From IMG/VR virus record IMGVR_UViG_3300046792_000333, positions 1-31,602 of that record: a DNA stretch of 31,602 nt. One strand, 5' to 3'. How positions within the stretch are numbered: position 1 is the first letter of the stretch; every line of letters starts with the position of its first letter. This document shows positions 3,050 through 26,023 of this stretch, piece after piece. A program made the translations under genes and the position numbers. The stretch is from a virus. The notes under the pieces were generated by a model that saw only the letters and a program-made list of their open reading frames with translations, was not told the DNA's origin and searched no databases.

Positions 3050-3909
3050 CCAGCATCAGCCAAGAACGCGCCGGTCTCGCCAGGGTCGGCCACACGCTGC
3101 GGACCCGCGAACAGGCACGGTTCAAGGGCAACTACACCAACTCGCGGTCGGTCGAGGAACCGGCCTCGAGGGTGTTCGTCCACATCACCATCACCAACCC
3201 GAAGTCCTACCCCAATGACGACGCCCACGCCCGCGCCGTCGAGGCCATCGGCCTCCAGCGCTTCCCGAACACCGGCGTGTCCTACAACAGGTTGATCATG
3301 CAGTCCGGCACGGCCTACGAAGGCCAGCCGATCGGCCGGCGCGGAGCCCACACCCTCAACGACAAGCAGCGGGCCACCTGCTCCACGTCCGGCTGCCCCG
3401 GCAAGGGCGGACCGCTGACCGCGCCCAGCTGGAACCTCAACATCAACAGCCGGGCCTACGCCGTCTGCCAAAACGTCAACGACGTCGTCACCGACAAGCA
3501 GCTGGACTCGATCGCCCGCTCGATCGCCGCCGACATGCTCGCGGGCTTCGTCCGCCGGGACGCCAAGATTCACGGCCACCGCTGTGTCTCCAGCAAGGAC
3601 TGCCCCGCAGGAAAAATGTGGTCGCGCATGTCCGAACTCCGCACGCTCGTCAACCGCTACCTCACCACGGGACTCACCGGCGGTGGGGCCGCGCCGAAGC
3701 CTCCACCTGGAGATGCAGACATGCCACTCAACGACGCCGACATCGTCAAGATCCGGGCCGCCGTTCAGGCCGAACTCGAAGAATACGGTGCCCGCCTGTG
3801 GGGCAAGTCCGGCACCGCAGGCTCCTACGTCGCCCGCTCCGACTCCCGCGAGAACGAGACCCTCAAGACCGCCAAGGAGATCGAGGACAACACCGACAAC
3901 ACACCCTGA
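3046..3909 (+). CDS. endolysin, N-acetylmuramoyl-L-alanine amidase (PGRP/Amidase_2 type)
   Basis: This 287-residue protein cleaves the amide bond between muramic acid and the stem peptide to release progeny. The expected zinc ligands are visible: His46 in FVHITIT, His178 in GHRC and Cys186 in KDCPAG. The eight-residue gap between the last two matches T7 lysozyme and PGRP amidases. The segment SYNRLIMQSGTAYEGQP, near residue 90, is the usual 'g.iyegrp..rrgaH' strand. After about residue 215, a Gly/Pro linker leads to a polar, probably helical 70-residue C-terminus that lacks a recognisable wall-binding domain. Its ATG overlaps the holin stop. A strong hairpin follows, so it appears to end the late operon. 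Confidence 0.85.
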   Translation: MTSISQERAGLARVGHTLRTREQARFKGNYTNSRSVEEPASRVFVHITITNPKSYPNDDAHARAVEAIGLQRFPNTGVSYNRLIMQSGTAYEGQPIGRRGAHTLNDKQRATCSTSGCPGKGGPLTAPSWNLNINSRAYAVCQNVNDVVTDKQLDSIARSIAADMLAGFVRRDAKIHGHRCVSSKDCPAGKMWSRMSELRTLVNRYLTTGLTGGGAAPKPPPGDADMPLNDADIVKIRAAVQAELEEYGARLWGKSGTAGSYVARSDSRENETLKTAKEIEDNTDNTP

Positions 3910-5980: not shown

Positions 5981-7468
5981 CTAGGCCGAGTCCGGCGGGC
6001 CATCCCAGGCGAACCTGTTGGTCATCCGTGCCCTGGTCCCCCGACCGGTCGCTGGCATCACCGTCAGCGCCGGGAACGCCCGCTTGATCATCGCGCGGCG
6101 TGCGTCGATATCGGCGTGCTCCCAGTCGTCCACCGTGTCGAGACGCGCCGCGCCGACAGACTCTGGGCCGTCGATCTCAGCCAACCGCGACTCGAGGTCG
6201 GCAGCCGCCGCCAGCACCTTGCTCAATGACCGGTCCACGCGGGCCGCACCCCAGGCCACAACCTTGTCCGCGATTGCGTCAGCGTCCTCATTCAGATCGT
6301 CCAGCTGCTTCGTGATCCGCGCCCGTTCGGCACGCGTGTCCGATGCCCGCCTGGCGATCCTCGCCGCATGCTTCGGGTTCGACAGACGCGTCAGTACGGC
6401 CTCGGTCACCTGGGCGTCAGCGAACCGCTGATCGACGTTCAGGCGACCACAGCCCGAGTTGTACCCGGCGCGCTTTTGGCACCAGTACTCCCGCGCCATC
6501 TCGCCATCTGCGTACGGCGACCGGCTCACCCGTGGCCGCCCGGTCAGCCGATGCCCGCACCGCCCGCAGAAGAGCAGGTAGGTCAGCAGGTATCGCACGG
6601 ACGGCTTCCGGCCCGGCTTGGCCGCCGCGAAATGTGTCTGTACCCGATCCCAGGTCTCGCGGTCCAGCACCGGCTCACCGGACAGCCTGCCCACGTCCTC
6701 GCCGTCGTACGTGACGATGCCGGCCAGTGATGGGCGACGCAGCATCGTATGCAGCGACGTCTCCGACCACAGGAAGCCGTAGGTCGTCGGCAGCTCCGTC
6801 TCGTTCATGAACCGCACCTGCTCGGCACGCGACACCCCTGCGAGCAACTTGCGGGCCACTTCCCGGACCGCCTCGCGCTCGGCCGTCAACTGGGCTTCCG
6901 GCACCCAGATACGCGGCTGGTCCGGCGTCCAGTCCGGTGGGTTCGGCAGGTACCCCGGCATGGCGAACCCGCGATGCGAGGCGTTCGACAGGCCCCGACG
7001 CGCCTTCTTCCGCTTACCCCGCCGGACCCGCTCGCTGATCTTGTCCGACTCGTGCGCGGCAGCTGTCATCGCGTCACGGAACTGCTTCCGACCATCGGCG
7101 GTCTGTAGGTCGTAGGTGGAGTAGGTCGAGGCCACCACCACACCTCGCTTCGCCAACGCCAGCAGCCGCTCTCCCTCCGCTGGCTTGCGGGTGAACCTGG
7201 TCAGGTCGTAGACCTGCACGCCATCGGCCAGGCCGGTCTCCAGACGGGTCATCAGTGCCTCGAAATCCGGCCGCACCACCTTCGGGTTCCACGCGCTCAG
7301 CGCGTTGTCGCGGAACAACTTGCCCACCGTCCAGGCGGGGTTCTCGTTGATCGCGTCAACGTTGTCCTCCTCCTGGCTCTCCACCCGCCGCAGGGTGCCG
7401 TCAGGCTCCCGCGAGATACGACTGTAGGAGTCCATCACTTTCAGTTCCCTGCTCTGCGTTCTAGCCAT
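5981..7468 (-). CDS. int: large serine recombinase (phage integrase)
   Basis: A 495-residue site-specific recombinase that would integrate the phage at a host attB through a covalent serine-DNA intermediate. The N-terminal resolvase domain shows the catalytic motif YSRIS (Ser19), then RPDFEALM and a D-LTRFTRKPAEG helix region. A recombinase domain follows (GYLPNPPDW, LHTMLRRPSLAGI). The zinc-ribbon domain carries Cys301, Cys304, Cys330 and Cys340 (CGRCGHRL, then YWCQKRAGYNSGCG). A coiled-coil-like stretch spans about 375-440 (RAERARITKQLDDLNEDADA). The length fits complete large serine integrases. A candidate attP lies just upstream and an intrinsic terminator just downstream, so it is an independent leftward unit. 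Confidence 0.93.
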   Translation of the reverse strand: MARTQSRELKVMDSYSRISREPDGTLRRVESQEEDNVDAINENPAWTVGKLFRDNALSAWNPKVVRPDFEALMTRLETGLADGVQVYDLTRFTRKPAEGERLLALAKRGVVVASTYSTYDLQTADGRKQFRDAMTAAAHESDKISERVRRGKRKKARRGLSNASHRGFAMPGYLPNPPDWTPDQPRIWVPEAQLTAEREAVREVARKLLAGVSRAEQVRFMNETELPTTYGFLWSETSLHTMLRRPSLAGIVTYDGEDVGRLSGEPVLDRETWDRVQTHFAAAKPGRKPSVRYLLTYLLFCGRCGHRLTGRPRVSRSPYADGEMAREYWCQKRAGYNSGCGRLNVDQRFADAQVTEAVLTRLSNPKHAARIARRASDTRAERARITKQLDDLNEDADAIADKVVAWGAARVDRSLSKVLAAAADLESRLAEIDGPESVGAARLDTVDDWEHADIDARRAMIKRAFPALTVMPATGRGTRARMTNRFAWDGPPDSA

Positions 7469-7578: not shown

Positions 7579-7791
7579 CTAGAGGTCATGGCTGCACAGC
7601 GGGCAGAAGGTGATCTTGTCGGGATCACCGGGCGGCAACGTGAGGCCGATCTCGGCGCACAATAGCCGCGCATCGGCCAGGAGGTCGTCGCCGGTGACCC
7701 AGCAGTGCCCGCACTCTCCGCAGACCACATACGCGTCGTCGGGAATGGGCTCGTGGCCATGCCAGAAGCATCCGAGTTCGGCGTCAAGCAT
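7579..7791 (-). CDS. small zinc-ribbon protein
   Basis: A 70-residue protein starting MLDAELGCFWHGHEPIPDDA. Cys pairs in VVCGECGHCW and FCPLCSHDL form a rubredoxin-like zinc ribbon. Its ATG overlaps the upstream stop by eight bases (ATGCTTGA). It is the last gene of the leftward immunity-type operon. No catalytic motif is visible. Similar proteins are frequent in actinophages and have no assigned role. Confidence 0.6.
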   Translation of the reverse strand: MLDAELGCFWHGHEPIPDDAYVVCGECGHCWVTGDDLLADARLLCAEIGLTLPPGDPDKITFCPLCSHDL

Positions 7792-8026
7792 CGCGTCCGC
7801 CGTCCCACAACGCGAGCGTCGTCACCGCGAGGATGGTCACCGTGGCCAGCAGGGCACCGCGCCACAGCGCCCCGGAGACCAGCGCCAACGCGACCGTCGT
7901 CGCCACCCCGATCACCTCGCCCAGGGCGAGCAGCAGGACGCCCCGCGAGGCTATCGACTTGTGGGTGGGGGTGTCCCCGGCCCATTCGCTGCCCACGCCC
8001 TCATCTCCTCCGTCGTCCGGCATCAT
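7784..8026 (-). CDS. small membrane protein, two transmembrane segments
   Basis: An 80-residue protein with an acidic N-terminus (MMPDDGGDEGVGSEWAGDTP) and two hydrophobic segments, about residues 30-48 (VLLLALGEVIGVATTVALAL) and 56-73 (RGALLATVTILAVTTLAL). It ends in WDGGRDA. It overlaps genes on both sides and lies in the repressor operon, a frequent place for membrane proteins that block superinfection. That role is only a possibility suggested by position. The first or second ATG could be the start. Confidence 0.55.
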   Translation of the reverse strand: MMPDDGGDEGVGSEWAGDTPTHKSIASRGVLLLALGEVIGVATTVALALVSGALWRGALLATVTILAVTTLALWDGGRDA

Positions 8027-8205
8027 CCATCATCACCGTTGCCCGGTGGGTGTGCTTCGTGCTCGTGCCGGTCGGCGGCCTCGTACGCGGCATCCGCGTC
8101 GGCGTACTCGACGCCGTCCAGGTCGTCGCATCGGTTGCAGCCGATGGACCAGTAGACCTCACGGTTGGCGAGGTCCGGCGGGTGCTGCCACACGAAGGTG
8201 GTCAT
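8023..8205 (-). CDS. small acidic protein with CxxC, unknown function
   Basis: A 60-residue protein beginning MTTFVWQHPPDLANREVYWS. Its ATG overlaps the stop of the XRE regulator (ATGA). It has a GCNRCDDLDG knuckle and an acidic, His-rich tail (RHEHEAHPPGNGDDG). The upstream extension of the frame lies in the regulator gene and is low-complexity Arg/Gly, so it is rejected. No family recognised. Confidence 0.55.
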   Translation of the reverse strand: MTTFVWQHPPDLANREVYWSIGCNRCDDLDGVEYADADAAYEAADRHEHEAHPPGNGDDG

Positions 8206-8573
8206 GTGCCCAGTGTGCGGGGGGCCGCATGGATCAGGGGACGCCCCAGCGCGTCCTCGGCGCACGCTCCGCTCGCCCCGCACACCGCGCAGGCCAGGGA
8301 GCCTTCGACGGCTATGACGTAGCGCCGGATGGTGTCGGGATCGGGCACCCTCGAGCCGGACTCCAGCCGCGAGACCGTGGCCTGGGTGACGCCGATCCGT
8401 TTGGCGACCTCGGCTTGCGACAGTCCCTTGGATCTGCGCAGGGCGGCCAGTCCAGCCCTCATCTGCTCCAACGCCGGCCCGGAGTAGACGTCGAGGTCGC
8501 GGCGGGCCTGCTGCACCGCGTCCGCCACTCCGTCCTTCCCCAGCTGCACCAGCCGGTGGTACGTCGTCATCAT
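8202..8573 (-). CDS. XRE-family HTH regulator, candidate immunity repressor
   Basis: A 123-residue protein. The ATG at 8573 is chosen because it overlaps the preceding stop (ATGA). An N-terminal helix region (MMTTYHRLVQLGKDGVADAV) is followed at about residues 38-92 by a Cro/C1-type helix-turn-helix: LRRSKGLSQAEVAKRIGVTQ, then ATVSRLESGSRVPDPDTIRRY. The C-terminal 30 residues contain CAVCGASGACAEDA, a Cys-rich patch. There is no peptidase-type domain. It sits in the leftward operon divergent from the early operon, the normal place for a lysogeny repressor. The palindrome TTGCCTCCGGCAT lies upstream of the operon's first gene and is a plausible operator. Confidence 0.75.
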   Translation of the reverse strand: MMTTYHRLVQLGKDGVADAVQQARRDLDVYSGPALEQMRAGLAALRRSKGLSQAEVAKRIGVTQATVSRLESGSRVPDPDTIRRYVIAVEGSLACAVCGASGACAEDALGRPLIHAAPRTLGT

Positions 8574-11671: not shown

Positions 11672-11841
11672 GTCGGCGGCGGCGGCCGGCGCGGCTGCGG
11701 GTGTACGAGTCACTGCTCTGTGAACGGTTCCAGCCGCCGATCCGCCGCCGCAACTCCTACCAGCCCGACGACAGCCCAGCCGAGGTCAGGCGGCGTGTCC
11801 GTGAACTGAGAGAGGCGGTGGGTGGCGATGAGGAGGGGTGA
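11668..11841 (+). CDS. small basic protein, unknown function
   Basis: A 57-residue protein starting MSRRRRPARLRVYESLLCER. It is Arg-rich in its N-terminal half and has a coiled segment EVRRRVRELREAVGGDEE at the end. Its ATG overlaps the recT stop (ATGA) and it ends three bases before the next gene. No family is recognised; the high positive charge suggests nucleic-acid contact. Confidence 0.5.
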   Translation: MSRRRRPARLRVYESLLCERFQPPIRRRNSYQPDDSPAEVRRRVRELREAVGGDEEG

Positions 11842-11844
11842 CGG

Positions 11845-12216
11845 ATGCCACGACTTGGCAAGCGCTACATCTGCGTGGACCTGGATTTCTGGGAGGACGC
11901 CGAGGATATGGGCCTCACCCTCAAGGCCGAGCGACTGTTCCTCAGGGGCCTCGCCGAATGTTACAGAAAGGCCACGGACGGGGTTATCTCGCGTTCAACT
12001 CTGCGTCGTCTCGGCGGTAACGGCTACCAACATAGCGTCCAGTTACTGCTTCGTTGTGGCCTGTTGGAGGAGAAGGAGCGGGACCTGTTCTGGATACCCA
12101 GCTGGAACAAGTGGAACGAGTCGATGGAGGACGTTTCCGCACGTCGCGCCGCAGACAGGCAGCGGAAACGGCTCAAGAAGGGCATCCCGCCGAACGCCTT
12201 CCGCATCCCCGACTGA
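11845..12216 (+). CDS. replication-initiator-like winged-helix protein
   Basis: A 123-residue protein starting MPRLGKRYICVDLDFWEDAE. The pattern 'vdldFw.d....l...aerLFlrgLaecy...tDGvIsr..lrrl' followed by LLLRCGLLEEKERDLFWIPS and WNKWNESMEDVSARRAADRQ resembles the N-terminal domain of phage replication initiators or replisome organisers. In those proteins the same 'W.kWn.s.e.v..rR..dR.R' motif closes the winged helix. It is short, lacking the usual C-terminal helicase-loader part. An iteron-like array begins five bases after its stop, supporting an origin-binding role. GAGGGGTGACGG precedes the start. Confidence 0.55.
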   Translation: MPRLGKRYICVDLDFWEDAEDMGLTLKAERLFLRGLAECYRKATDGVISRSTLRRLGGNGYQHSVQLLLRCGLLEEKERDLFWIPSWNKWNESMEDVSARRAADRQRKRLKKGIPPNAFRIPD

Positions 12217-12220
12217 GGTG

Positions 12221-12296
12221 CCTATTCCGCGCGGAACAGCGCCGGAACGGTCGCGGAATAGCAGTGCTATTCCGGCGCTGTTCCAGGCTATTCCGC
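12221..12296. repeat. iteron-like repeats and nested palindromes, candidate replication origin
   Basis: Four copies of a CTATTCCG core lie within 76 bases: 12222-12229, inverted 12254-12261, 12267-12274 and 12288-12295. GGAACAGCGCCGGAA (12233-12247) and TTCCGGCGCTGTTCC (12270-12284) form a perfect 15-bp inverted repeat. Inside it lies GGAATAGCAGTGCTATTCC (12255-12273), a perfect 9+1+9 palindrome. The two structures share bases and exclude each other. The site follows the initiator-like gene directly. An AT-richer stretch (AAGAATAGAAAGAGAGG) comes next. Confidence 0.55.
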
Positions 12297-12380
12297 TTCT
12301 AAGAATAGAAAGAGAGGTTTACGGCGAGGTCGCACGGAACCATCTACCCGCGCGCGCAGATTTAGTTGAAGGGGGCAACT

Positions 12381-12683
12381 GTGGACACTGTGGATAACCC
12401 TGTGGACATCCCGCTGCCGCTGGATGGCCTGCCGGACGCACCTCCACGGCACCGGGTGGCACCGCGTAAGGGGGCGCGGCGCAAGCCGATCTACCGGCGG
12501 GTGCCGAACATCGTGCATCGCTGCGACGACTGCATGGCCAACCACCGCGACAACGTCGCCGCTCCGCTGGCCCTGCCGGGCCGGTATGAGCGCCGCATCA
12601 TCGGAGAGGGGGCGCGGTTCCTGTGCTACGAACACGTCCAACACTGGCGGGAGTACGACTCGATGCAGCCGTTGGAGGAGTGA
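12381..12683 (+). CDS. small protein with Cys/His zinc-like motif
   Basis: A 100-residue protein. The GTG at 12381 is chosen because GAAGGGGG lies about five bases upstream; a TTG 15 bases earlier would sit on that site. It starts MDTVDNPVDIPLPLDGLPDA. A basic centre (KGARRKPIYRRVPNIVHRCD) leads to CDDCMANHRDNVAAP and later FLCYEHVQHW. The C-x2-C...C-x2-H arrangement could bind zinc. Its last codons overlap the RusA start. Function unknown. Confidence 0.6.
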   Translation: MDTVDNPVDIPLPLDGLPDAPPRHRVAPRKGARRKPIYRRVPNIVHRCDDCMANHRDNVAAPLALPGRYERRIIGEGARFLCYEHVQHWREYDSMQPLEE

Positions 12684-13114
12684 GCACGCTGCGGTTCGTG
12701 GTCGTCGGTGAACCGCAGCCGCAGGGCTCGCTCAAGTCGTTCCGGCACCGCTCGACCGGCGCGATCGTCTCCACGTCCGACAATGCCGCTCTGCGGCCCT
12801 GGAAGGACCGGGTGGTACTGGAGGCCAGGCAGGCCATGAAAGGCCGCCAGGAGCCGCTTGCTGGCCCGGTCTCGGTGCATGCAGCCTTCGCCCTACGCCG
12901 GCCAAAATCGGTACGCCGCGAATGGCCGACCGTGCGGCCGGACCTGGACAAGTTGCAGCGCGCCATCGGGGACGCCCTGGTCGAGGCCGGGGTGCTCATC
13001 GACGACGGCCAGATCGTGGCCTGGAGCCCCGTCAAGCGCTACGCCGACCACCCGACCAGCCCGATCAACCACCCCGGCGTGGTCGTCGCCGTACTCGCCC
13101 TGGAGGAACGATGA
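12680..13114 (+). CDS. rusA: RusA-family Holliday junction resolvase
   Basis: A 144-residue endonuclease that cuts four-way junctions arising from YqaJ/RecT recombination or replication. The RusA fold is recognisable: strand LRFVVVGEPQPQGSLKSFRH at the start, then the metal-binding cluster RPDLDKLQRAIGDALVEAGV with Asp88 and Asp90, and LIDDGQIV with Asp108/Asp109. The GTG start lies in a GTGA overlap with the preceding stop and just after GGAGGA. It overlaps the next gene by ATGA. Confidence 0.87.
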   Translation: MSTLRFVVVGEPQPQGSLKSFRHRSTGAIVSTSDNAALRPWKDRVVLEARQAMKGRQEPLAGPVSVHAAFALRRPKSVRREWPTVRPDLDKLQRAIGDALVEAGVLIDDGQIVAWSPVKRYADHPTSPINHPGVVVAVLALEER

Positions 13115-13467
13115 CCGACTTCGATCCGAAGCGACTCCGCGCCCTGCGCCTGGCGCGCGGCCTGACCGCCGACCAGACCGCCACCGCAGCCAATCGCAGC
13201 ACCGCCACCTACGACGGCTACGAGAGCGGGGCGATCCGCCCCACGATGGAATCCCTGGACCGTCTGGCCCATGTGCTCCAGTGCAGCATCGATGCGTTCT
13301 TCGACCCCGACGCTCCCGCCACGTACGACTGGCCGACACCGCAGCAGCGTGAAGACATCCGCCGGGAGGTCCGCAAGATGGCCGCTTTCACCGACGACGA
13401 GGTCGACTCGATGTCCGCCATCATCGCGGAGGTCCGCCGTGCGTCGGTCCGGCAGGCGATCCGATGA
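13111..13467 (+). CDS. XRE-family HTH regulator, early operon
   Basis: A 118-residue protein with an N-terminal Cro/C1-type helix-turn-helix: FDPKRLRALRLARGLTADQT, then ATYDGYESGAIRPTMESLDR and LAHVLQCSIDAFFDP. A helical C-terminus follows (PQQREDIRREVRKMAAFTDD). It lies inside the early operon, coupled by ATGA on both sides, so it may act as a Cro-like regulator or modulate middle genes. Its first 60 bases are nearly repeated at the start of the next gene. Confidence 0.75.
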   Translation: MTDFDPKRLRALRLARGLTADQTATAANRSTATYDGYESGAIRPTMESLDRLAHVLQCSIDAFFDPDAPATYDWPTPQQREDIRREVRKMAAFTDDEVDSMSAIIAEVRRASVRQAIR

Positions 13468-18652: not shown

Positions 18653-18774
18653 GGCCGACGCTTGTCTTCGGCGTGGTCGGGGTCACCGAACGAGACGCAG
18701 TAGGCCACATGCTCATCCACCTCCTCCTGCGTGCCCTCGAATGGACAGTCTCCGTACGGACACTTCCTCATCAT
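18649..18774 (-). CDS. 41-residue zinc-finger peptide
   Basis: MMRKCPYGDCPFEGTQEEVD then EHVAYCVSFGDPDHAEDKRR and P. Cys5, Cys10, His22 and Cys26 give a C-x4-C-x11-H-x3-C pattern, a plausible single zinc finger. GAAGGGAGC ends two bases before the first ATG, or five before the second, which may be the actual start. ATGA-coupled to the following gene. Confidence 0.55.
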   Translation of the reverse strand: MMRKCPYGDCPFEGTQEEVDEHVAYCVSFGDPDHAEDKRRP

Positions 18775-18858
18775 CTGCTCCCTTCACCTTCCCTGTCGGG
18801 TGACAGGACACCACCCAGGGACGATACCCGCCCCTGGGCGATGCTCACTCACCCGCTC
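18775..18858 (-). repeat. intergenic hairpin/9-mer module A
   Basis: On the minus strand: stem CCCAGGG/CCCTGGG (18832-18838 with 18814-18820), stem CCTGTC/GACAGG (18802-18807 with 18792-18797) with the ACCC loop, then GAAGGGAGC (18785-18777) before the start at 18774. Confidence 0.65.
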
Positions 18859-19230: not shown

Positions 19231-19472
19231 TCCGGTCGCCCCCTTCTGAGTTCCACGGCGGTGGCCGTGACCTCGACCAGCCGCCGACCATCGTCGGGCC
19301 AGGTGTGCTCGCTCGTGGCGTAGTGCTCCCGAAGAGTGTCCTGCGCCACGGTGATGTGGACCGAGTCGTACGGACCCCAGACCGCGAACACGCCGCGCCA
19401 CTCGTCGTGAGCCTCCGGGAGGCCGGTGTCTCCGGTCCCCTCCACGACTACGACATAGGCTTTGCTGCCCAT
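19209..19472 (-). CDS. small protein of unknown function
   Basis: An 87-residue protein starting MGSKAYVVVVEGTGDTGLPE. The ATG at 19472 is chosen because GAAGGGAGC ends four bases upstream. An ATG inside the 9-mer leader would add MMKGAN, an artefact seen at many starts of this cassette. Strands VFAVWGPYDSVHITVAQDTL and RRLVEVTATAVELRRG suggest a small alpha-beta domain. Confidence 0.55.
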   Translation of the reverse strand: MGSKAYVVVVEGTGDTGLPEAHDEWRGVFAVWGPYDSVHITVAQDTLREHYATSEHTWPDDGRRLVEVTATAVELRRGRPEWPFREE

Positions 19473-19549
19473 GTTTGCTCCCTTCATCATTCGATCCTGC
19501 CGGGTGGCAGGACACCACCCAGGACGCTTCGTTCCTGGGTCGTGCTCCG
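19473..19549 (-). repeat. intergenic hairpin/9-mer module B
   Basis: Stem ACCCAGGA (19517-19524) / TCCTGGGT (19533-19540) with ACGCTT in the plus-strand loop; stem CCTGCC (19496-19501) / GGCAGG (19506-19511) with GGGT loop; then minus-strand GAAGGGAGC at 19485-19477. Confidence 0.7.
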
Positions 19550-19762
19550 TTACCCGATCTGCTCTTCGTACGCGCGGTTCAGCCGCTCACCGGCCTGCGA
19601 CATCGACGGGTAGTAACCGAAATCGGCCCCGTCCAGCGTGACGGCCCAGTGCCGGTCACCCCGATGCAAGACCTCGCCAATCGGCCGGATCTTCCCGTCC
19701 ACGTTCCGCCAGACGGTGTGCCCGTCCTTGGTGCGGGTGTAGGTGATCGTTGCCTCAGGCAT
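19550..19762 (-). CDS. small beta-rich protein of unknown function
   Basis: A 70-residue protein starting MPEATITYTRTKDGHTVWRN, then VDGKIRPIGEVLHRGDRHWA and VTLDGADFGYYPSMSQAGER. The ATG is adjacent to a GTG that overlaps the upstream stop, so the start could be one codon earlier. AAGGAGG lies upstream. The start codons overlap a dispersed palindrome. The first residues MPEAT are shared with the gene at 21190-21390. Confidence 0.55.
   Translation of the reverse strand: MPEATITYTRTKDGHTVWRNVDGKIRPIGEVLHRGDRHWAVTLDGADFGYYPSMSQAGERLNRAYEEQIG
19750..19762. promoter_or_regulatory. dispersed palindrome TTGCCTCAGGCAT over a start codon
   Basis: Exact consensus match covering the first codons (ATG CCT GAG GCA) of the minus-strand gene beginning at 19762. 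The identical site covers the start at 21390. Confidence 0.55.
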
Positions 19763-19959: not shown

Positions 19960-20183
19960 TGCGGAGTCACCGGCGTGAGCCGAGCGGCCCAGTGGGCACG
20001 ACCAAGGTCGTAGTCCTTGTTGAACCAGGCCGCCAAGGTCGGATCGGACGGCCTCAAGATGGCGACAGGCGCGGAGGGGTCCTCCGTTGGCCTGCCGTCC
20101 CGCTCGAACCCGATGACGACGACGGCCATGAGGCCCCCGTCGTCGTTCGTCATGATGTACTCGTTGCCTATGGCAAGTTCCAT
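19956..20183 (-). CDS. small protein of unknown function
   Basis: A 75-residue protein starting MELAIGNEYIMTNDDGGLMA at the ATG that follows GAAGGGAGCAGTG. It continues VVVIGFERDGRPTEDPSAPV and AILRPSDPTLAAWFNKDYDL. A short beta-rich N-terminus is followed by an aromatic C-terminal half. A dispersed palindrome (20164-20176) lies in codons 3-7. Confidence 0.5.
   Translation of the reverse strand: MELAIGNEYIMTNDDGGLMAVVVIGFERDGRPTEDPSAPVAILRPSDPTLAAWFNKDYDLGRAHWAARLTPVTPQ
20164..20176. promoter_or_regulatory. dispersed palindrome TTGCCTATGGCAA
   Basis: Exact consensus match within the first codons of the gene starting at 20183 (encoding LAIGN on the minus strand). Confidence 0.5.
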
Positions 20184-20259
20184 CACTGCTCCCTTCATCA
20201 TTCCCTGCCGGGTGGCAGGACACCGCCCACAGACGCTTGGCCCTGTGGGCGATGCTCAA
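20184..20259 (-). repeat. intergenic hairpin/9-mer module C
   Basis: Stem CGCCCACAG (20224-20232) / CTGTGGGCG (20243-20251) with ACGCTT in the loop; stem CCTGCC (20204-20209) / GGCAGG (20214-20219); minus-strand GAAGGGAGC at 20196-20188. Confidence 0.7.
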
Positions 20260-20541
20260 CTACCCGATAGTTCTCGAACTGCGCTTCCTGTCGTTGACGT
20301 TGACCTCCTCGACGCTCAGGTTCGCGTCGTAGGCCCGGCCCGTTTCGTTGAGCCACGCCTTCACATGTGGCCACCAGAAGATCGGCCCGCAGCGCGGTTC
20401 GGCTACAGGCTCCGGGAACGTCTCATGACGCACCCGCCACATCGCCACGGCCGGTTTCTGTACACCGGCACGCTGGGCGATCTCGGTGAGGCTCACCAGC
20501 GGCAACCTACTGCCGGGGCGAACGTCGATCTCATCCGTCAC
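20260..20541 (-). CDS. AlpA/MerR-like HTH protein
   Basis: A 93-residue protein with a GTG start overlapping the upstream stop region: MTDEIDVRPGSRLPLVSLTE, IAQRAGVQKPAVAMWRVRHE, TFPEPVAEPRCGPIFWWPHV, KAWLNETGRAYDANLSVEEV. The 'lvsltEIAqraGVqkpaVamWr.RH..FPePv......p.fwwp.V.aWl' pattern is the HTH used by AlpA-type phage regulators and excisionases. It is the clearest helix-turn-helix regulator in the leftward cassette, so it may act on the dispersed palindromes. No direct evidence links them. Confidence 0.7.
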   Translation of the reverse strand: MTDEIDVRPGSRLPLVSLTEIAQRAGVQKPAVAMWRVRHETFPEPVAEPRCGPIFWWPHVKAWLNETGRAYDANLSVEEVNVNDRKRSSRTIG

Positions 20542-20821
20542 GATGCCCGCCAGCCTCAGCGAAGCCCTTGCCCAAGGCAAAGGCATCCATGTAGAGCGCC
20601 GCCTCACGGTACTGTGGCGGCAACTTGTCGTGGACCATCTTGATCCGTTCAGCGATGACGTACATCAACGCCGCCATGTCGACGCCGAGGATGTCCTCGA
20701 CGCGCTGGCCGCCCTCGTCGGACGCGCCGTCGATCCGCAGGATCACCTCCGACATCCGCCAGAAGTCCTGCGACTGTGGACGGTCCGGGAACCGCTTATC
20801 CCGCAGTGGATCGTCGCTCAT
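20531..20821 (-). CDS. small helical protein of unknown function
   Basis: A 96-residue protein starting MSDDPLRDKRFPDRPQSQDF after GAAGGGAGCAACG. It contains WRMSEVILRIDGASDEGGQR and VEDILGVDMAALMYVIAERI, then KMVHDKLPPQYREAALYMDA. It is mostly helical with an ordered hydrophobic core. A dispersed palindrome (20568-20580) lies in the FALGKG codons near the C-terminus. No family recognised. Confidence 0.55.
   Translation of the reverse strand: MSDDPLRDKRFPDRPQSQDFWRMSEVILRIDGASDEGGQRVEDILGVDMAALMYVIAERIKMVHDKLPPQYREAALYMDAFALGKGFAEAGGHRDG
20568..20580. promoter_or_regulatory. dispersed palindrome TTGCCCAAGGCAA
   Basis: Exact consensus match inside the 3' part of the gene at 20531-20821, 27 bases upstream of the next start codon. 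Confidence 0.5.
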
Positions 20822-20899
20822 CGTTGCTCCCTTCAACATTCGTGCTGCCGAGTCGCAGCACACCCGCCAGGGACGCTTGCCCCTGGCGGATGCTCCCCG
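20822..20899 (-). repeat. intergenic hairpin/9-mer module D
   Basis: Stem CCGCCAGGG (20864-20872) / CCCTGGCGG (20881-20889) with ACGCTT loop; stem GTGCTGC (20842-20848) / GCAGCAC (20855-20861), which replaces the CCTGCC/GGCAGG of modules B and C; minus-strand GAAGGGAGC at 20834-20826. Confidence 0.7.
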
Positions 20900-21118
20900 C
20901 TACTCGACCTTGGTGGCCTTGCCCCGGAGGTACTTGACCTCCAGGTCACGGACCTCCGCGAAGAACGCCTCGATGTCCAGGCTGTTCTCGATGGTCAGCT
21001 CCGCGATCGGGTCATCGCCCTGTGGTGCGACGATGAACCCAATGGCCGAACCGTCGACGTGGGCGTCCATCTTGCAGTCCCACGTCTCGCCGTCGCTGAG
21101 GTTGGTCAGCTTCGCCAT
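20900..21118 (-). CDS. small acidic protein of unknown function
   Basis: A 72-residue protein starting MAKLTNLSDGETWDCKMDAH after GAAGGGAGCAAGA. It continues VDGSAIGFIVAPQGDDPIAE and LTIENSLDIEAFFAEVRDLE. Beta strands are followed by an acidic helix. No family recognised. Confidence 0.55.
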   Translation of the reverse strand: MAKLTNLSDGETWDCKMDAHVDGSAIGFIVAPQGDDPIAELTIENSLDIEAFFAEVRDLEVKYLRGKATKVE

Positions 21119-21189
21119 TCTTGCTCCCTTCACATGCTGCCGAGTTGCAGCACACCGCCCACAGACGCTTGCCTGTGGGCGATGCTCCA
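21119..21189 (-). repeat. intergenic hairpin/9-mer module E
   Basis: Stem CGCCCACAG (21156-21164) / CTGTGGGCG (21173-21181), same arms as module C; stem TGCTGC (21135-21140) / GCAGCA (21147-21152), close to module D; minus-strand GAAGGGAGC at 21131-21123. The mixed arms suggest recombination between modules. Confidence 0.7.
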
Positions 21190-21390
21190 TCACTCGACCA
21201 TCTCGTACCCGTCGAACCATCGGCCCCGCTCCTTGGTCCGCCTCACGGCGGGCTCGCTGGTCGCGGTGTTGGATGAGGTCTCTGGGTCGCTGCAGTGTGC
21301 CTGCGCCTGTGCGAGCGTGAGCCCGCGAACGATGACCTCCCGCTCGTCGTTCTCGAAGAACCGGATGATCGTATAGGTTGCCTCAGGCAT
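21190..21390 (-). CDS. small actinophage protein (TIIRFFENDERE type)
   Basis: A 66-residue protein starting MPEATYTIIRFFENDEREVI, then VRGLTLAQAQAHCSDPETSS, NTATSEPAVRRTKERGRWFD and GYEMVE. The layout 'yti.Rff.nd..evi..gLTLaeAqaHC.dpeTSS.ta......t...G.WFdGYe' is typical of a small protein seen repeatedly in actinobacteriophages, with unknown function. GAAGGGAGC lies seven bases upstream of the ATG. Confidence 0.65.
   Translation of the reverse strand: MPEATYTIIRFFENDEREVIVRGLTLAQAQAHCSDPETSSNTATSEPAVRRTKERGRWFDGYEMVE
21378..21390. promoter_or_regulatory. dispersed palindrome TTGCCTCAGGCAT over a start codon
   Basis: Identical to the site at 19750-19762; covers the codons for MPEA at the start of the gene beginning at 21390. 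Confidence 0.55.
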
Positions 21391-23589: not shown

Positions 23590-23671
23590 GCGATCTGCTC
23601 CCTTCATCGGTACTGTCTGAGTGACAGCAGGCGCTGCACCAGCCCTACGGCTGGTGCCTCACCTTCCCTAC
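23590..23671 (-). repeat. intergenic hairpin/9-mer module J, switch-like
   Basis: Stem CTGTC (23613-23617) / GACAG (23623-23627); stem GCACCAGCC (23636-23644) / GGCTGGTGC (23649-23657); minus-strand GAAGGGAGC at 23605-23597. GTCTGAGT (23615-23622), which forms part of the first stem and its loop, can instead pair with ACTCAGAC (23670-23677), which overlaps the upstream stop codon. Confidence 0.65.
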
Positions 23672-24076
23672 TCAGACCTCGCAGTCATGGCCCGCCGAAA
23701 ACTCGCTCGGGTCATCGTCGGTCGTCCACGTCCTCCCGCACTCCGGGCACCGGTAGACGACACTGCCTGGCACTAGCTGGTCGGCGTCCGGCCGCAGTAA
23801 CGTGCCGGGCGCTTTCCCAGGGAACAACATCGCTTCCGCCCTGGCCAGCACACGCGCCCTGCGGGCGGCCAACTCGGGGTCGACCACGTACAGTTCACGT
23901 TCCGGCGTGGTGACCGGCACCGCGCGGATCTTGTCGACCAGCGTCCAGCGGGCACGCAGGTTCACGGCGTACTCGAGGGCTTCCGCCTCGGTGTCGAAGC
24001 GCAGGGCGTTGCCCGCCCAGTGCGTCTCACCGAACGTCAGAACCTCGGCACGCCAGGTGCCCTTGTTGTCTGCCAT
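23672..24076 (-). CDS. zinc-ribbon protein of unknown function
   Basis: A 134-residue protein starting MADNKGTWRAEVLTFGETHW at the ATG after GAAGGGAGCAAACGAA. It continues AGNALRFDTEAEALEYAVNL and RARWTLVDKIRAVPVTTPER. The pattern 'w.....rFdt..eA..ya.nL..rW..vd.iRvv' is a common small phage domain resembling KTSC/DUF-type strands. The C-terminus has YRCPECGRTWTTDDDP and GHDCEV, a zinc ribbon. Confidence 0.6.
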   Translation of the reverse strand: MADNKGTWRAEVLTFGETHWAGNALRFDTEAEALEYAVNLRARWTLVDKIRAVPVTTPERELYVVDPELAARRARVLARAEAMLFPGKAPGTLLRPDADQLVPGSVVYRCPECGRTWTTDDDPSEFSAGHDCEV

Positions 24077-24168
24077 TTCGTTTGCTCCCTTCAACGGTTC
24101 ACTGTCTGAGTGACAGCAGGCCGCGCACCGACCGTAAGCCGGTGCGCCACCCTCCATACTCAGACCTC
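24077..24168 (-). repeat. intergenic hairpin/9-mer module K, switch-like
   Basis: Stem CTGTC (24102-24106) / GACAG (24112-24116); stem GCGCACCG (24123-24130) / CGGTGCGC (24140-24147); alternative long pairing GTCTGAGT (24104-24111) / ACTCAGAC (24158-24165) as in module J; minus-strand GAAGGGAGC at 24092-24084. Confidence 0.65.
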
Positions 24169-24504
24169 TCAGTTCCTCACTGTGAGCGTGCGGCGCAGAC
24201 GCGCTGGCCGCACGGCAGTGGCTTCGAGGTATCGCTGATCGTCAGCGCTCGAGGTCGCCAGGTACCACAGCGTCCACGGGCTCTGCATGGATGAGGCGGT
24301 CTCGGTCACGAAGAACGCCCTGGCCTCTCGCCGGACGGTCTCCATGAACGGGCCGACGAGGTGACCGTACCGCTCCCAGGCTCGGGTGCTGGCCGGTACC
24401 GGGCGATCGTTGAACCAACGGCCCAACGCTCGCCACGCCTCCGCGACGTGCTCCTGCTCCCGTCGTTGGCCTTCTTCGACGGTAAACAGCAGTCGTTCCT
24501 TCAT
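24169..24504 (-). CDS. small helical protein of unknown function
   Basis: A 111-residue protein, first gene of the leftward cassette, starting MKERLLFTVEEGQRREQEHV, then AEAWRALGRWFNDRPVPAST, RAWERYGHLVGPFMETVRRE and ARAFFVTETASSMQSPWTLW. Mostly helical with many Arg/Trp. GAAGGGAGCAAGAA precedes the ATG. No family recognised. Confidence 0.55.
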   Translation of the reverse strand: MKERLLFTVEEGQRREQEHVAEAWRALGRWFNDRPVPASTRAWERYGHLVGPFMETVRREARAFFVTETASSMQSPWTLWYLATSSADDQRYLEATAVRPARLRRTLTVRN

Positions 24505-25198: not shown

Positions 25199-26023
25199 AT
25201 GGCCGAGGCGGATGACGCATGGTCGGAAATCCCGCAGTACGGCCATGGCGTGCTTCCCGGCTGGGAGCCGTATGAGGGTGAGGATCGGCCGCTCGACGAT
25301 GGCGGCGTCTGGCTGGACAGCGGACGGCTGTGTGAGTGGGTGCGCGAACGCAGCCCGAAGGTGATGCTCGGGTTCTCCACGGGCAAGGACAGCATCGCCG
25401 CGTGGTTCCGCCTGCGGGAGTACTGGTCCGCCGACGACATCTACCCGTACTTCCTCTACCTCGCGCCGCGCATGCCGATGATCGAGCGCAGCCTGACCTA
25501 CTACGAAGACGTGCTGGGCACGGACATCTGGCGGATGCCGAACCGCTCGGTGTACCGGTTCCTCAATGATGCGGTCGCCCAGACGCCGGCCAACCTGCCG
25601 GTGATCATCGGGGCGCAACTGCCGGACATGTCCTACCCCGACATCTACGACTGGCTGGCCGTGGACATGGGCATCGCGGACGAGCACCCCTGGGTCGCGC
25701 ATGGGGTCCGATCGGCGGACTCCCCGATGCGTCGGATGCTGCTGAAGAAGCACGGTCCGTGGCGGCCGAACGAGCGGGCGTTCTACCCGATCCATGACTA
25801 CTACGTCGCGGACATCCGCCGGGTGCTGACCGAGACCGGGGTCAAGTTGCCGGTGGACTACCGCCTGTTCGGCCGGTCGTTTGACGGTCTGGATCACCGG
25901 TTCGCGGCACCGTTGCGCGAGAACTTCCCGGAGGACTTCGAGGCGCTCCGTGCGCTGTACCCGCTGATGATCCTCGATTCCTGGCGACGAGGGGACGGAC
26001 CAGACCCGCATGACTTCCAGTGA
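25199..26023 (+). CDS. PP-loop PAPS-reductase-like protein
   Basis: A 274-residue protein of the phosphoadenosine-phosphosulfate reductase/ATP-pyrophosphatase superfamily. The PP-loop is clear: VMLGFSTGKDSIAAWFRL with Ser60-x-Gly62-Lys63-Asp64-Ser65. A strand-helix unit follows (YPYFLYLAPRMPMIERSLTY), then GTDIWRMPNRSVYRFLNDAV and HGVRSADSPMRR. The usual C-terminal ECGLH-type cysteine of assimilatory reductases is absent, so sulfate reduction is unlikely. Phage members are suspected to adenylate or modify nucleic acids, comparable to DndC, but this is not shown. GGGAGG lies upstream of the ATG. Confidence 0.75.
   Translation: MAEADDAWSEIPQYGHGVLPGWEPYEGEDRPLDDGGVWLDSGRLCEWVRERSPKVMLGFSTGKDSIAAWFRLREYWSADDIYPYFLYLAPRMPMIERSLTYYEDVLGTDIWRMPNRSVYRFLNDAVAQTPANLPVIIGAQLPDMSYPDIYDWLAVDMGIADEHPWVAHGVRSADSPMRRMLLKKHGPWRPNERAFYPIHDYYVADIRRVLTETGVKLPVDYRLFGRSFDGLDHRFAAPLRENFPEDFEALRALYPLMILDSWRRGDGPDPHDFQ

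Follow-up and report, generated by a model that had tools for sequence, protein, structure and literature searches.

A phased seven-site array behind a short initiator-like gene, a probable replication origin in a temperate actinophage

The initiator-like gene and its surroundings

Here we analyzed the window, the whole 31,602-base stretch of an IMG/VR record, which is a temperate actinophage with genes for a serine integrase, a RecE/YqaJ-like exonuclease, RecT, RusA, and terminase. The phage probably integrates, given the integrase gene at 5981-7468. Among the scanned ORFs of the window, none was recognized as a helicase loader, helicase, or primase, and the record may be partial. Between the RecT and RusA genes sits a short gene with an array of repeated sites directly behind it, followed by these features:

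11845-12216, plus strand: short initiator-like gene (123 aa), winged-helix domain and basic tail; the array begins 5 bp past its stop codon
12301-12317, plus strand: purine-rich stretch AAGAATAGAAAGAGAGG
12380-12409, minus strand: three DnaA-box-like sites, GTGTCCACA, TTATCCACA (perfect), and ATGTCCACA, some 85 bases past the array
12381-12683, plus strand: next gene (phrog_34991), GTG start, with the DnaA-box-like triplet in its first codons

The first-pass annotation had ascribed replication-initiator features to the 123-aa protein. In agreement with this, the protein matches phrog_2447, annotated as a replication initiation protein (E=1.5e-16), and also phrog_3926 (E=5e-12), in both cases over the N-terminal third of the family only. 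Full-length initiators of these two families have about 250-310 aa, and the C-terminal domain is missing here; no ORF of the window or of the Kribbella contig described below matched the C-terminal part of any relative. A Pfam scan returned Phage_rep_org_N alone, below the cut-off (E=0.18), and no RepA_N (PF06970) match. AlphaFold, run with two distant relatives in the alignment, gave a model whose winged-helix core is confident (pLDDT 82-92) and which also has a long basic helix, while an alignment-free model (pLDDT 50) was discarded. The best viral structural matches of the AlphaFold model are actinophage helix-turn-helix proteins and replisome organizers (best E 8.5e-6). In the PDB it has weak matches only, among them MarR regulators, the DnaD N-domain, and Rep initiators, with structural Z scores of 7.5 for 2vn2 and 6.8 for both 4pt7 and 5kbj that unrelated winged helices tie. 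Close relatives of the initiator were not found in viral_contigs or genome_contigs at the sensitivity used.

Elsewhere in the window, a gene for an XRE-type regulator at 13111-13467 is followed from 13464 onward by the start of a near-identical tandem copy, and ATGACCGACTTCGATCCGAAGCGACTCCGCGCC is present twice.

The seven-site array and its Kribbella counterpart

The array consists of seven 7-bp sites, each CTRTTCC or one step away from it, in mixed orientation (+ - - - + + +). The sites are given below with their counterparts in the Kribbella array:

12222-12228, plus strand: site 1, CTATTCC; identical in Kribbella
12233-12239, minus strand: site 2, CTGTTCC; identical in Kribbella
12244-12250, minus strand: site 3, CCGTTCC; CTGTTCC in Kribbella
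12255-12261, minus strand: site 4, CTATTCC; same sequence in opposite orientation in Kribbella
12267-12273, plus strand: site 5, CTATTCC; identical in Kribbella
12278-12284, plus strand: site 6, CTGTTCC; ACGTTCC in Kribbella
12288-12294, plus strand: site 7, CTATTCC; GTATTCC in Kribbella

Start-to-start spacings are 11, 11, 11, 12, 11, and 10 bp, or one helical turn each. Four repeats had been described here previously, and these copies of CTATTCCG are indeed present at 12222, 12267, and 12288 on the plus strand and at 12254-12261 on the minus strand, but the count was incomplete because CTGTTCC and CCGTTCC bring the array to seven. The core YRTTCC occurs 7 times in the 80 bp of the array, versus a maximum of 4 per 80 bp when the whole window was dinucleotide-shuffled 200 times and 3 per 80 bp elsewhere in the window. 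All spacings fell at 10-12 bp in only 2 of 2517 random non-overlapping placements of the sites, and the composition-corrected k-mer score of the array was reached by none of 505 other window stretches (p=0.002). An exact 18-mer, CTATTCCGCGCGGAACAG, was also found at two loci in viral_contigs (L046 and L047), each time as a single copy with no array in the surroundings read, and we took these matches as chance.

Using terminase similarity (82% identical), we located a related prophage in Kribbella albertanoniae JCM 30547. Its initiator gene product is 67% identical to that of the window and is also 123 aa long. A search for the repeat in relatives, proposed when the array was first noticed, yielded seven matching sites behind this gene, with orientation + - - + + + + and spacings of 11, 11, 11, 11, 12, and 10 bp. 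Both arrays span 66 bp, the A or G at position 3 matches in 7/7 sites, and site 4 is reversed. The pairing of an iteron-like array with a short initiator-like gene, which had been suggested from the window alone, is thus kept site by site. The close-relative comparison of initiator and array draws on this one relative, and a search of 37 other Kribbella genomes found no copy of the initiator gene.

The perfect 15-bp inverted repeat (12233-12247/12270-12284) and the perfect 19-base palindrome (12255-12273, perfect out to 12254-12274) that had been reported are both present, and they do share TTCC at 12270-12273. It had been proposed that these mutually exclusive palindromes form a switch, and they could act as alternative hairpins or cruciforms, or as an RNA element between the two genes. 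As this idea would predict, RNA from the window array is unusually well folded, with z -4.0 for the coding strand and -6.5 for the other, and the Kribbella minus strand still has a weaker, partly paired dyad that includes G-U pairs (z -2.9). However, both the perfect inverted repeat and the 19-base palindrome are absent from Kribbella, the former because one site is flipped, and folding of the Kribbella coding strand is no better than shuffled (z -0.6). An Rfam search of the array region gave no family at gathering score, only microRNA models far below threshold, and no terminator was found there. Since sites and spacing are kept in Kribbella while the palindromes are lost, the conserved unit is the phased site. 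The Kribbella comparison therefore argues against a hairpin switch, the minus-strand dyad notwithstanding, and we consider such a switch or RNA element very improbable. The best reading of both palindromes is that they arise as by-products where neighboring sites face opposite ways.

The related prophage is spread in pieces over assembly contigs, including L048 and L055 (contig C98). L048 carries an ORF at 7602-8489 resembling a phosphoadenosine phosphosulfate reductase-like gene of the window (25199-26020, plus strand; phrog_2302, E=1.7e-17), which lies just ahead of the terminase region. Both also share a repeated leader, which in the window stands upstream of small minus-strand genes between 18 and 24.5 kb and consists of two hairpins, then GAAGGGAGCA before the start:

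Window, minus strand: leader copies at 18765-18848, 19470-19552, 20180-20260, 20820-20898, 21112-21190, 23590-23690, and 24080-24178
Kribbella L048: leader copies at 1675-1755, 2895-2975, and 3450-3530

Across these ten copies, compensatory changes occur in 11 of 19 predicted pairs, and the element looks like a structured leader RNA.

Phased arrays across the initiator family

We next collected 30 additional initiator-like genes, including four HNH-fused ones, from phage records and same-class genomes. Most family members have short repeated sites directly behind the domain, with lineage-specific letters (GTCAC, GGGAC, GTTCG, GTAAC, GATTCG, and others). In distant initiators (n=24; RepA-like, phrog_2447, phrog_3926, and phrog_1882), a phasing of 11-12 bp is found just after the winged-helix domain. 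A blind test for this masked short tandem runs and compared the number of exact 5-mer matches at every lag with a same-locus background. Pooled over the 24 relatives, the counts peak at 10-12, 22-24, and 34-36 bp (0/5000 same-locus draws), with 24 matches versus 3.8 in the background at lag 11, 70 versus 10.4 at lag 12, and 30 versus 2.8 at lag 22. A codon rhythm does not account for the phasing, as lags 11, 22, and 34 are not divisible by 3. A plain 5-mer site test was weak (Fisher 0.009) due to GC-rich codons and was replaced by a composition-corrected score and the lag spectrum. The corrected half-site enrichment behind the domain is strong overall (Fisher 1e-9), though not significant in every single relative, and is not seen in the four HNH-fused homologs that served as negative controls. 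Behind the array, a tandem tract of 5-6 bp units is common (Fisher 7e-15 over 26 relatives; examples are AGAACAGAACAGAAC and CCCGACCCGACCC). The arrays of relatives also stand near helicase loader or helicase genes. Phased arrays thus lie at the homologous place across the initiator family, which further supports the suggested link between array and gene. We found no account of arrays of this kind in actinophage initiators in the literature searched; Wetzel et al. (PMC7157519) reported no repeats for another RepA group and suspected its origin to be in-gene or upstream.

In most relatives the array DNA lies within the reading frame and encodes a linker. In the window, the stop codon (12214-12216) precedes the first site at 12222, placing the iterons outside the initiator reading frame, unlike a lambda O-type origin. 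The gene likewise ends before or at the array, with the C-terminal domain absent, in Kribbella, in locus L065 (G125:C68), and in phages Anatole and Auxilium. For L065 and Auxilium gp78 (L136 1897-2000), a short initiator is accompanied by a site array outside the gene, and for Anatole gp45 (L134 around 10597), the stop codon falls among the first repeats. A short gene with an extragenic array therefore occurs in at least three other lineages and is a recurrent minority form. The earlier view that the short initiator is unusual holds against the majority of relatives, but the form is not unique.

A candidate origin and its known counterparts

The purine-rich stretch at 12301-12317 occupies the place of the 5-6 bp tandem tract in relatives and is a candidate unwinding region by position alone. 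A tandem tract at this place is clear in most relatives, marginal in Kribbella (AGAAATAGAAATAGA, p=0.04), and not significant in the window (p=0.89). The same DnaA-box-like triplet is found in the start of the next gene in Kribbella, with a perfect TTGTCCACA in the middle, and three copies of TGTGGA so close and in that order occur at one place in the 9.7-Mb Kribbella genome. Between window and Kribbella, synonymous conservation covers 13/16 codons at the triplet versus 38/54 in the rest of the next gene, which is only mildly higher, so that selection at the DNA level is possible. No relatives of this gene (12381-12683) were found in viral_contigs. The idea that DnaA boxes mark short initiators in general was considered and rejected, as no perfect box lies near the L065, Anatole, or Auxilium arrays.

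Based on these sequence features, 12222-12409 is probably the phage replication origin, with a probability of roughly two in three. In our best reading, it would be an origin of the initiator-bound, in-gene iteron kind that has been left outside a shortened initiator gene. With spacings of 10-12 bp, the seven CTRTTCC sites face the same side of the DNA, where the short winged-helix protein (11845-12216) would bind them and build a compact nucleoprotein complex. Opening of the neighboring purine-rich stretch would follow, and host DnaA, bound at the adjacent three boxes, would assist in loading the host helicase, standing in for the missing C-terminal domain. Repression of the operon to which the gene belongs may be a further role of the array. 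A broader evolutionary scenario, which we regard as tentative and rather doubtful, is that the C-terminal half of an in-gene-origin initiator, which recruits the loader, has been lost repeatedly in actinophages, and that what remains is a bare DNA-binding domain with an extragenic array. Here, host DnaA at a newly recruited three-box cluster would replace the lost half, giving a hybrid phage-iteron/DnaA origin.

Alternatively, the array could be an operator without origin function. The protein would then be a small regulator of transcription, binding its own operon 3' of the gene and controlling how strongly the RusA-containing operon is expressed. The array does lie between two genes of one strand, its mixed-orientation sites fit a dimeric regulator, and the top Foldseek matches in the PDB are MarR-type regulators, though this fold is common. 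However, a scan of 11700-12800, covering sigma-70 type promoters only, found no promoter-like site. Relatives carry their arrays in the middle of the initiator reading frame, which would be odd for an operator, and near helicase loader or helicase genes, and the best family matches of the 123-aa protein are initiators. We therefore consider a pure operator unlikely, although it is the strongest of the alternatives. Partition systems also have phased short sites bound by a winged-helix protein, and the array could instead be a parS-like centromere or another nucleoprotein array unrelated to the start of replication. This is very improbable as well: no ParA/ParB-type gene was found among the scanned window ORFs, the serine integrase indicates a phage that probably integrates, and the family carries a replication-initiator annotation, with helicase loader genes nearby.

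To our knowledge, the origins of most actinobacteriophages are unmapped. The order of a winged-helix initiator, lineage-specific sites one turn apart, and often a short tandem tract could serve as a simple origin predictor for many genomes. This pattern can be tested in laboratory hosts through the cultured phages Anatole, Auxilium, Dropshot, and OneDirection, and the short-initiator forms raise the question of what loads the helicase when there is no C-terminal domain.

Among the closest counterparts are Anatole gp45 (from a Propionibacterium freudenreichii phage) and Auxilium gp78 (from an Arthrobacter phage). Like the window protein, they are stand-alone winged-helix proteins, of 121 and 144 aa, with repeats arrayed at the stop codon or directly past it, but their sites differ in sequence (TAAGCAA in Anatole and GCGGCAA in Auxilium). 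The actinophage RepA-like initiators Dropshot gp42 (Microbacterium phage), OneDirection gp60 (Gordonia phage), and prophi62-3 gp22 (Mycobacterium phage) share the winged-helix N-domain and basic tail, with phased short sites directly behind the domain as in the window, then mostly a 5-6 bp tandem tract. In these, the array lies in the gene and is followed by the C-terminal domain and often a helicase loader gene, whereas the window gene stops first and neither was found.

Among better-known systems, lambda O (PMC7466680), SPP1 gene 38/oriL (PMC6316719), and pSK41 rep (PMC5703833) are precedents for sites inside or beside the initiator gene, and in these, as in most relatives, the site DNA is in frame and encodes a linker. 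As in the window, the initiator N-domain of lambda O and SPP1 gp38 stands next to its repeats. An AT-rich or unwinding region flanks these repeats on one side (PMC7466680, PMC6316719), for which the purine-rich stretch is the candidate in the window. Unlike the window, both have an in-gene origin. Both also have a dedicated loader (P and gp39, respectively), of which no counterpart was recognized among the scanned window ORFs, and the iterons of lambda measure about 19 bp and have inner symmetry, in contrast to 7-bp sites one turn apart. The pSK41 Rep protein has an N-domain of ~120 residues with a DnaD-like fold that binds several Rep boxes mid-gene (PMC5703833). N-domain structures of such RepA_N initiators (4pt7 and 5kbj, Z 6.8) are among the matches of the window protein, which differs from pSK41 Rep in having its array outside the gene, no DnaD-like C-terminal domain, and no RepA_N sequence match in Pfam.
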